DNA of 64,000 nucleotides from the NCBI GenBank assembly GCA_034670405.1, contig JAXDDX010000012.1, forward strand, positions 248,001-312,000, given 5' to 3'. Below the pieces are notes generated by a model. It did not search any database. It saw nothing but the letters and a program-made list of their open reading frames with translations, and was not told the DNA's origin. The position numbers and the translations under genes were made by a program. Source of the stretch: Hoplostethus atlanticus. Taxonomy: Eukaryota; Chordata; Actinopteri; Trachichthyiformes; Trachichthyidae. Of this stretch, positions 1 through 3,900 are shown piece after piece. Every line of letters begins with the position of its first letter. Position 1 is the first letter of the stretch.

Positions 1-671
1 CTTTTCTCCTTATGAGTTAGGTTCATTCTGCTAATGATGCTACATTCTCATCTAGGATTTTGACCATTAGCTTGTAAGCTAAGAGTTTTGCACCAATGCT
101 ATATTATCTCTTAGAATTAAAAAATACCAGATTTGTTGAAGCATTGATAATTATAATGTCAGATGTTCATATGTACATACTGTTGTGCTGATTTTGCCTA
201 TCCTTTCCATCAGTCTATGCATAGTCCCACCTTATCATGCTTTAGTCACTTGAATTCCATGAATTCCATGAATTCAAGTGACTAAAAAGCATGATAAGGT
301 GACGGTTCACTGTTTTGTCAAAATAGACCAACTTACACCACATCCTTGTTGAGGCATTAAGCTGTTGAAAAGTGAAATAGAACACCTGCTTCTCTCCAGC
401 CATTTCACGCACTCCTGTTTAGATGCTCACCACCTTTACGTATGCTAGTTAATAGATTTGTTTGTGTTAATAGATAGTTTGTGTATGTTCAGTGTGTGTG
501 GAGTGGTACCTGTCTGTTTCACGCTGGTGTCCGTTGTGATAGACCTGGCTCTCCCCTTGGCACCCTCCTCTTTTGTCTTTCCCTCCCCCGTGGCAAGTAG
601 CACCACCCAACAAGCCAACCTGCCGACTTATCAACCTTGCAGTCACTAAAGCCCTTGGCTCTGCCCTGTAG
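1..671 (+). other. pfkp: pfkp intron upstream of alternative exon A (partial)
   Basis: The segment ends in a good 3' splice site at 670-671. I find no further pfkp exon in it. It holds a near-perfect inverted repeat at 228-301 and otherwise unremarkable AT-rich to mixed sequence. Confidence 0.7.
228..301. repeat. Near-perfect inverted repeat (fold-back)
   Basis: The left arm starts CACCTTATCATGCTT and the right arm ends AAGCATGATAAGGTG. The arms are about 29-30 bases each and differ mainly by two extra bases in the right arm. They flank a centre with two tandem copies of CATGAATTC. The transcript would form a long hairpin. It could be a fold-back transposon remnant or a cruciform-prone palindrome. 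Confidence 0.85.
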
Positions 672-824
672 GCCTACCTGTCACTGCTGGAATTGTTAAC
701 GGCGCGCGGGAAATATGACGAGTTCTGTGTGCCGATGGTCATGGTCCCAGCCACTGTCTCCAACAATGTGCCGGGCTCAGACCTCAGCATTGGCGCTGAC
801 ACGGCTCTGAACGCCATCACGACT
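672..824 (+). CDS. pfkp: pfkp alternative exon A (PFKP-like version)
   Basis: The exon is 153 nt (51 codons) and is phase 0 at both ends. The acceptor follows a pyrimidine-rich tract ending CCCTGTAG and the donor is GTAAGT. The product starts [18 protein letters not shown], contains [18 protein letters not shown] and ends TALNAITT, running directly into TCDRIKQ of the common exon at 2964. The [13 protein letters not shown] stretch is the C-half counterpart of the GSIDND-type substrate loop and lies at the effector sugar-phosphate site by family knowledge. It is the standard PFKP/PFKM-like form of this segment. An equal-length homologue sits 1.4 kb downstream. Confidence 0.93.
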
Positions 825-883
825 GTAAGTGATGGAGCTGGCAACCGGACAAGTTGATCTCAACATCACACAGACAAACTAAT

Positions 884-925
<42 letters not shown>

Positions 926-3900
926 CACAAGCAGACAAACACAGAAACCTCAAAGATGCTCATACTGATGTAGCCATCCAACCAATCATGTTGCAAGAAG
1001 GGGGAAACCGCTCACTCAACAGACCTATCACTCGGCATGATATTTACCAGCATCAGCCTCTAGGTCTATAGTGGGGGCCCAGATAATGCCTCCTCCCTAT
1101 GAATGTGGAACACTATTGGCTTATAACATGGCTGCCGTTTCCGCATCCTGAAACCATTTGAAACCATCAGGGTCTTAGGCAGGCAGACACATTGAGTCAG
1201 AAGTGTCTGGACCGCAGGGCGTGACTGGTAAAGGTAAAGCCGAGCTGACACAGTAGCGTCCCTCCCTTCCCCATCAGGTAAGTGAGTGACAACATGGAGG
1301 CATGCTGTGACGTACCCGTGTGTTGTGGCCGCCATGTTTGCTCCGCCTCTCCCCTCTCCCTGACTCGATGTTTGTGTGTACATCCACTTCATTAACCTCA
1401 TGATGAGTGGTCAAACTGAAGTGCACAAACTAACCTCCTATAGCGTTAGAAGGACTTACCACACATATATGAATGTGTGTGTAACAAGTTCCCTACTGTG
1501 CTTGTTTTGTCACTTTAAGCTTTGATGCTTCGCGATTCCTCAAATGAACATTAAGGCCAGTTTCTAGGTGTTTATACTTTTAGACTTTCCTCTTTTAAAG
1601 AGAGCCTCAAAAAGTAACAAGAGCCCAAAGATGTGTAGAAACACCTTGTAAGTCTGAGTCTTGGCTTGGCCACACCATCGTTACTTCATCTCATACCCTA
1701 TCATTCTGTTTGTGTGACCTGACCGGTGCCTGTCCTGCCTGTATATAACCTTCCTCAACAAATATGGCCATCGCACGGTTTCTGATTGCTCCTTGCTGGT
1801 TGTTATAGTGCGGTGTCATTGCACTGAGCTGCTGACACACAAACACTCAGCCGTCCTGCCCGGCTGCCCAACATCCCCTCTGTTCCTTCCTCCTTCCTCA
1901 TCTCCTTCCCTCCCTGTCTTTTTTCCACCTTTATTTCTTTCCACTCTATCCTTGCTGTTGCCATCCTACCTCTTCTCTGCCATTCTTATAAGCGTCTTTC
2001 TTCTTTGCGTTCAGTTTTCCTCTACCCACCCTCACTTTCTTTTCCATCCCTGCTCACTTTCCCTGAATCTTTCCCTCGTTCCTCCACTTTGCCAAAGGGA
2101 AGCCATAGCCGCTATCACACGGAAAGAGCCGGAATGGCAGGGTACGCTCTAGCAAACTGAGAGGGATTCATGTCTCTCTCAGGAGCTGGTCGCAATTGGC
2201 TCTAATGCATTTTGTGTATACTGCCGCTTCAGGCGTTTGAGTGTCTGCTGCAGCTGTATGAGGCTCGGGCTACCTATGAGGAGTTTTGCATCCCGATGTG
2301 TATGCTGCCTGCCACCATAAGTAACAATGTGCCGGGCACTGATCTTAGTATCGGGGCAGACACGGCCCTCAATGCCATCGTGGAGGTAAGGCAGTCCAAC
2401 CGGCCACCGACACAGCTTTGACTGTTCAGATGTTGAAATGTAGATGAAATTGAACCATGATCTCACGTATCAGTTTTGCTATACAGTATAATGTGAAATG
2501 ATAGTTTAGTTCCTAAAGAAAATGTAATTAAACTCTGTTTTATGTTTGAGCAGAATGAATGAATACAGTTTACCGGTTGATGTGCTCTCCCTTCCTTATG
2601 CAGGACTCCAGTTTATCTGGTGAAAGCAACATGTTAGCCTGAATGTGCCTGAGTTGTCTAAATGTAGCAAGCTGGTTCTTTTGTACAGTATCTGGAATGA
2701 GCATGCCGGCCTTGAAACTTGATGCAGTGTTATATTGTTGTATATCTGTGGTGGAATGTATTGCTAGAACAATATGTGACCTCTTGTAACTTGTAGCCCT
2801 TCTAACACAAACAATGCTTGGATTGTTCACACATTGAAATATTACAAATGAAAGGCATTTAGCTCAAAGTATCTGAGACGTAGACACAGTTTCCTAATGC
2901 TTAGCTTGTAATAATCAATACGTGTATACTGACATTGGAAGTGTGTGTGTGTGTGTGTATCAGACTTGTGACCGCATCAAGCAGTCAGCCAGTGGGACCA
3001 AGAGGCGTGTGTTCATCATTGAGACCATGGGGGGCTACTGTGGCTACCTGGCTAGTGTAGGAGGCCTGGCTGCAGGGGCCGATGCTGCCTACATCTATGA
3101 AGAGCCATTTGACATCAGAGACCTACAGGTGGCTCTCTCTCTCTCTCTCGCTCTCTCTGTCTGACACACACACACACACACACACAAACTCTTACATTCA
3201 CATAATATGAAACATTGCCTGTACCACCATTGTATTTGTGTCTAGTTCCCAGCTGGTCATTTGCCACTTTGTCCACTAGAGGGCACTTGGGCTCGATTCT
3301 GAGACACTGGCAGCACAGAAAGGCCTCCACCAATGCCATCTGCTGGTCAGCATTACTCATGTTGACTATTTATTCCCACAGGCCAATGTGGAACATTTGA
3401 CACAGAAGATGAAGACCAGCATTCAGAGAGGCCTCGTCCTCAGGTAACAAAGTCAAGCCACAGATGTAACTGATACCCTCCTCGTTCCCTACAGCACATT
3501 TTTAAGGCTTGCTTGCGATATGTGTTTAAATCCAGTATTTGTAGTCCACAGTTGATCCATCTTTGCAAATTCTTTGTCTTTGTACATTTGGCCAGTGTGT
3601 ACTGTAAATAGATCCTCTGCTGATGCCATGTTTTCAGAAGCCCAACTCTTGGCAGTCCTGCTGTCATTGTAATGTCAATATAGCATGAACCCAGTGTAGG
3701 GTGGAGCTGACAAAACGGCAACAGACATGCGTCCAATAGCATGTTGGGGTGTAAATCTACACCCAGAAGACCAACTGTCCTGTTTTACTGTCTGCCTGTA
3801 GGAATGAGAACAGCAATGAGAACTACACGACAGACTTCATCTACCAGCTGTACTCTGAAGAAGGACACGGCGTGTTTGACTGCAGGAAGAATGTACTGGG

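Follow-up and report, generated by a model that had tools for sequence, protein, structure and literature searches.

Near the start of the window, a stretch of 64,000 nucleotides of the Hoplostethus atlanticus genome (G000:C12:248001-312000; genome 632.8 Mb), lie exons of a gene for phosphofructokinase (PFK), assigned below to pfkp. Two homologous exons, termed A and B, are followed by a common downstream exon, C:

672..824, + strand: exon A, 153 nt, phase 0-0, the PFKP/PFKM-type version of the C-half effector-site segment
2233..2385, + strand: exon B, 153 nt, phase 0-0, the PFKL-like version of the C-half effector-site segment
2964..3128, + strand: exon C, the common downstream exon (TCDRIKQ...DLQ)

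Both A and B have open reading frames. They agree at 100 of 153 bases and encode the same residue at 35 of 51 positions. The remaining 53 bases differ, split 12/11/30 over codon positions 1, 2 and 3; at the codon level, 17 codons are identical, 18 are silently different, and 16 change the residue. The corresponding distances (NG86; dN 0.27, dS 2.27) indicate an old split with silent sites near saturation. The splice sites were ranked with an approximate weight matrix against the 4167 AGs and 3708 GTs of the window. The acceptors of A and B reached the 97.9th and 95.2nd percentiles and their donors the 97.5th and 99.9th, and the sites of exon C ranked lower (acceptor 88.9, donor 96.1). The upstream exon ends in phase 0 with ...ALLIIGGFE, followed by gtacgt, at G000:C12:247988, which is 13 bases short of the window start. 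Splicing from A to C, from B to C, and from A through B to C is in frame in every case. The lengths, phases, good splice sites and identity of about 35 of 51 residues given in a preliminary description of this DNA were exact, and its statement that either exon can be joined in frame to position 2964 agrees with the phase of the upstream exon. Homologous, internal and next to each other, with matching length and phase, open frames and splice sites, A and B have the properties of tandem-duplicated exons. Their matches to solved PFK C-halves (E 2.3e-24 and 4e-22) rule out chance.

The gene is pfkp, as had been proposed beforehand. The spliced 217-residue segment with A scored 473.5 bits against platelet-type PFK, 416.2 bits against the muscle type and 398.2 bits against the liver type. 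The PDB chains were assigned to these types by the enzyme names in the tables. Both the match scores and the tree of the flanking exons place A and its flanks nearest to PFKP, ahead of PFKM and PFKL. On its own, exon A matches platelet-type PFK best (86 bits), and exon B matches the liver type best (79.2 bits; platelet 74.6 bits). Both spliced forms fit the Pfam PFK domain, with 218.9 bits for the form with A and 227.8 bits for the form with B. Moreover, B outscores A against all four alpha/beta subunit chains, which we take to be yeast enzymes.

A Pfam search of the genome located 33 PFK matches, spread over five contigs (C12, C75, C38, C27, and C30). Genome searches with A and with B each returned seven copies among the best-scored candidates. 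Both exons are present in the gene on C12 and in a second pfkp gene on C75. The pfkm-like genes on C27 and C38 each hold one such exon, of the A type, and the pfkl-like gene on C30 holds only a B-type exon. A tblastn search over ten stretches of the five PFK genes and the best candidates of the genome searches yielded these seven C-half copies and no third exon copy. Within the stretches examined, no B-like remnants of the pfkm-like genes and no A-like remnants of the pfkl-like gene were found at E values of up to 1.

In the second pfkp gene, exon A is 84% identical to its counterpart over 50 positions and exon B is 95% identical over 42. Its exon B (G000:C75:814215-814368; L014 5215-5368) is 154 nt long, and the one extra base leads to a stop after 42 residues; candidate explanations are an error of the assembly, a recent loss and a poison exon. 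Such a defect is what would be expected if B were a decaying duplicate, rarely or never used, a reading that we consider highly improbable. Indeed, 17 of the 23 differences in B between the two pfkp genes fall at third positions. The dN/dS between these genes is 0.29 for A (51 codons), 0.07 for B (50 of 51 codons, the codon with the extra base being left out) and 0.02 for exon C (55 codons), so that both exons show purifying selection and B has the lower ratio of the two. The AG and GT ends of B are present in both genes (they were scored in the C12 gene only), and an exon pair has been reported for the human gene (PMC7954323, PMC9741552). The substitution pattern thus indicates that B remained coding sequence during most of the period after the two pfkp genes diverged. 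The preliminary description had considered both exons to be selected and had proposed a dN/dS comparison of both; the ratios given here, which compare two paralogues of one genome, bear this out.

The age of the duplication was approached with an exon tree of 14 sequences and 51 columns, comprising the seven fish copies, the platelet, liver, and muscle PDB types and four yeast-type subunits. The branch that separates A, pfkm and the muscle type from B, pfkl, the liver type and the yeasts received bootstrap/SH-aLRT values of 95/98 and 99/98 in two runs. An arrangement in which A and B of the C12 gene form their own pair was rejected (p-AU 0.004). B and pfkl as one clade, which bears on whether the duplication also precedes the pfkl split, gave a p-AU of 0.262; the other arrangement has 77/76. 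Eight positions split A/muscle from B/liver in all ten vertebrate sequences, including V/C at position 23, V/I at 29 and S/T at 36. In the tree of the flanking exons, in which the yeasts are represented in 46 of 166 columns, the platelet type falls with the pfkp genes (89/94) and the muscle genes group together (79/96); pfkm and pfkp are only weakly joined as sisters (bootstrap 53, SH-aLRT 39).

These trees suggest that the exon duplication is probably older than the split between pfkm and pfkp, and the loss of B from pfkm would be their simplest reading. Alternatively, the exon pair could have arisen in the pfkp lineage only, with B coming to resemble pfkl through convergence or slow change. 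A topology that unites all pfkp exons is indeed not rejected with 51 columns (p-AU 0.0997). Nonetheless, A joins pfkm (99/98), yet the flanking exons of the pfkp genes group together (bootstrap 89, SH-aLRT 94), and an origin restricted to pfkp seems unlikely.

Exclusive exons of this kind are already known. PFKP is listed among the mutually exclusive exon events that likely alter allostery, with a change of residue 539 from Val to Ile near the fructose bisphosphate site between the two versions (Lam et al. 2021, PMC7954323). The same point on the human gene set was repeated by Martinez-Gomez et al. (2022, PMC9741552), who found orthologues in bony fish for >90% of human tandem exon duplication events. 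In the fish gene, position 29 is Val in A and Ile in B, which is the difference reported at human residue 539. Position 29 of A aligns to residue 567 in the 812-residue chains 7tff/4xyj; if these chains carry 28 residues of N-terminal tag in addition to a protein of 784 residues, as we assume, this position fits PFKP residue 539. Given this match and the age reported for such pairs, the human and fish pairs are most likely orthologous. The two share the gene and the effector-site segment in addition to the Val539Ile difference (PMC7954323, PMC9741552); they differ in that the present data come from two paralogues of a fish. The preliminary description had placed the exons near the fructose 2,6-bisphosphate effector site and had left it open whether the pair was described before. 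The placement matches the residue 539 event, and the pair has been described, in human PFKP (PMC7954323). PKM1/PKM2 is a comparable case, in which the allosteric control of a glycolytic enzyme is swapped by homologous exons (PMC7954323); it concerns another enzyme.

Full-text literature searches, with most subscription papers and supplements outside their scope, yielded no paper on the pfkp exon pair in fish and none on RNA structure in PFKP. PFKP does not occur in the main text of PMC5740500 and PMC4465641, and in the accessible parts of PMC11405407 and PMC12487847 the gene is mentioned and its exons are not. In Atlantic salmon muscle, pfkpa was among the genes with differential gene and transcript expression in relation to vitamin D (PMC12613645). 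Added here are the second pfkp gene with both A and B, the exon pattern of pfkm and pfkl, and a pair of conserved complementary intron elements described below.

Each exon encodes a 51-residue version of the segment in which the PAT(V/I)SNNVPG(S/T)D loop of the effector site in the C-half lies. A and B are very likely mutually exclusive, exactly one of them being used per transcript, and swapping them would tune the control of the enzyme by its effector fructose bisphosphate. Several simple causes of exclusivity were considered and rejected. The intron between A and B measures 1408 nt, which exceeds the range of steric exclusion. Because each exon measures 153 nt, a multiple of 3, transcripts that include or skip both would also stay in frame, so the reading frame enforces no exclusivity and wrong products would not be cleaned up through it. 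Minor-spliceosome incompatibility was dismissed because the introns have, by eye, the usual GT-AG ends. The length of the A-B intron and the open frame of every combination would also suit an alternative use of A and B that is not strictly exclusive, some transcripts carrying both or neither. That reading is improbable in our view, as PFKP is listed as mutually exclusive (Lam et al., PMC7954323) and the gain or loss of 51 residues in a folded domain is expected to ruin it. Taken together, a mutually exclusive, tandem-duplicated pair in teleost pfkp, most likely orthologous to the human PFKP pair, is the likely explanation of the locus.

Two elements in the introns flanking A are both conserved and complementary:

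528..564, + strand: e1, in the intron before A, with a conserved counterpart in the second pfkp gene; complementary to e2
2082..2131, + strand: e2, in the A-B intron, also with a conserved counterpart in the second pfkp gene; complementary to e1

The two pfkp genes were compared over seven introns, leaving out about 30 bases beside each acceptor. Among them, only the two introns flanking A hold conserved elements, one each, with 37.4 bits for e1 and 39.2 bits for e2. None of 200 comparisons of block-shuffled introns reached 37.4 bits (highest 33.7). The B-C introns of the two genes showed no match to each other, and no match above 22.0 bits came from the four other intron pairs, which include short ones. 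A repeat origin of e2 was rejected, as a search returned one match in the genome, at its own locus; the sensitivity of this search was limited, as the copy in the second gene was not listed.

The elements were picked by conservation first, and their complementarity was tested afterwards. In the C12 gene, the duplex of e1 and e2 has an energy of -39.7 kcal/mol, and 1 of 2000 dinucleotide shuffles was as low; in the second gene it has -34.2 kcal/mol (17 of 2000 shuffles). In the C12 gene, each of the two elements pairs best with the other, out of 272 and 130 windows, and e1:e2 came top of the 760 window pairs in a window scan. Of 185 windows paired with e2 in the second gene, the e1 region is the best. 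A joint fold of the two-gene alignment contained 22 pairs, all between e1 and e2 and none broken, and 0 of 1000 column shuffles were as stable. As 21 of these pairs are identical and one is changed on one side, in two sequences of one genome, the covariation support is almost nil. A T-A to A-T exchange seen by eye next to a bulge is not counted in the joint fold.

The duplex may take part in the choice between A and B, a proposal we rate a little short of even. A similar standing, somewhat below an even chance, is given to the reading of e1 and e2 as separate conserved protein-binding sites whose complementarity is incidental. The latter is favored by the minimum-energy folds of the whole region (2412 nt in the C12 gene and 3418 nt in the second), which contain zero e1-e2 pairs, and by the near absence of covariation. 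The second gene also offers equal alternative partners: the best pairing of the e1 window lies elsewhere in the window scan, another site in the A-B intron ties with e2 at -34.2 kcal/mol, and a site in the B-C intron, for which conservation was not established, reaches -33.6. As a point against the duplex, without the conservation filter, 9 of 100 shuffles of the whole introns reached the best observed duplex, so the duplex is significant only through the choice of the elements by conservation. Separate sites are harder to reconcile with the few shuffles as stable in the two genes (1 and 17 of 2000) and with the fact that e1 and e2 are the sole conserved elements found among the seven intron pairs.

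Regarding a role of the duplex, the proposed arrangement resembles docking-site/selector pairing (insect Dscam; Ivanov and Pervouchine 2018, PMC6071210; Ate1 in PMC8052449) in its conserved complementary sequences in the left and the internal intron. Competing pairings are the defining feature of those systems, whereas only one supported pairing was found here. In the C12 gene, the B-C intron held no good partner of e1 (best -18.4), and no competing pairing for exon B was found. Conserved complementary regions that loop out exons in human introns are also alike in placing a duplex around an exon, there with lower inclusion (PMC8052449); here, in contrast, the duplex would enclose one of two homologous exons, and two fish paralogues only were compared.

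As a separate observation, a (CA)n run after A (885-925) and a (GT)n run before C (2940-2960) could pair and loop out B, with -41.7 kcal/mol as the best window pair between the A-B and B-C introns. The second pfkp gene likewise has a GT run ahead of its exon C. This pairing of simple repeats is probably due to chance.

As a possible mechanism, e1 and e2 would pair into a long RNA duplex, with A looped out. The e2 element lies about 100 nt before B in the C12 gene and about 720 nt before it in the second gene. In the C12 gene, pairing would reduce the distance between the upstream donor and B from about 2244 to about 640 nt and thus favor B; without the duplex, the nearer exon A would be used. 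Another factor would be needed to keep B out when A is used. A candidate is the pyrimidine-rich tract before e2 and exon B, a possible repressor site:

1839..2088, + strand: pyrimidine-rich tract; 150-nt windows starting at 1839-1939 contain 80-83% C+T

No tract as rich in pyrimidines was found in the second pfkp gene, where the richest windows (70%) lie before its A. The full scenario, in which an exclusive pair of an ancestral vertebrate PFK was followed, after genome duplication, by retention of A in pfkm, of B in pfkl and of both in pfkp, with the choice in teleost pfkp made through an e1:e2 duplex looping out A, is rather doubtful as a whole.

The rate of glycolysis is set by PFK-1, and the swapped segment is in contact with an activator site. 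If the effector segments of pfkm, pfkl, and pfkp do derive from a single ancestral splice choice, a one-exon swap within one gene could serve to test part of what distinguishes the muscle, liver, and platelet enzymes kinetically. If the duplex proves true, the paired intronic elements would provide a simple handle on the switch between A and B. The exon pattern of the PFK family and the paired intron elements are the parts worth following. Finally, the intron upstream of A also contains a near-perfect palindrome of about 74 nt at positions 221-310, not found in the other PFK stretches examined in this genome. The surrounding window of 215-315 folds with -49.3 kcal/mol (z -11.1), and the palindrome is perhaps a small inverted-repeat element.
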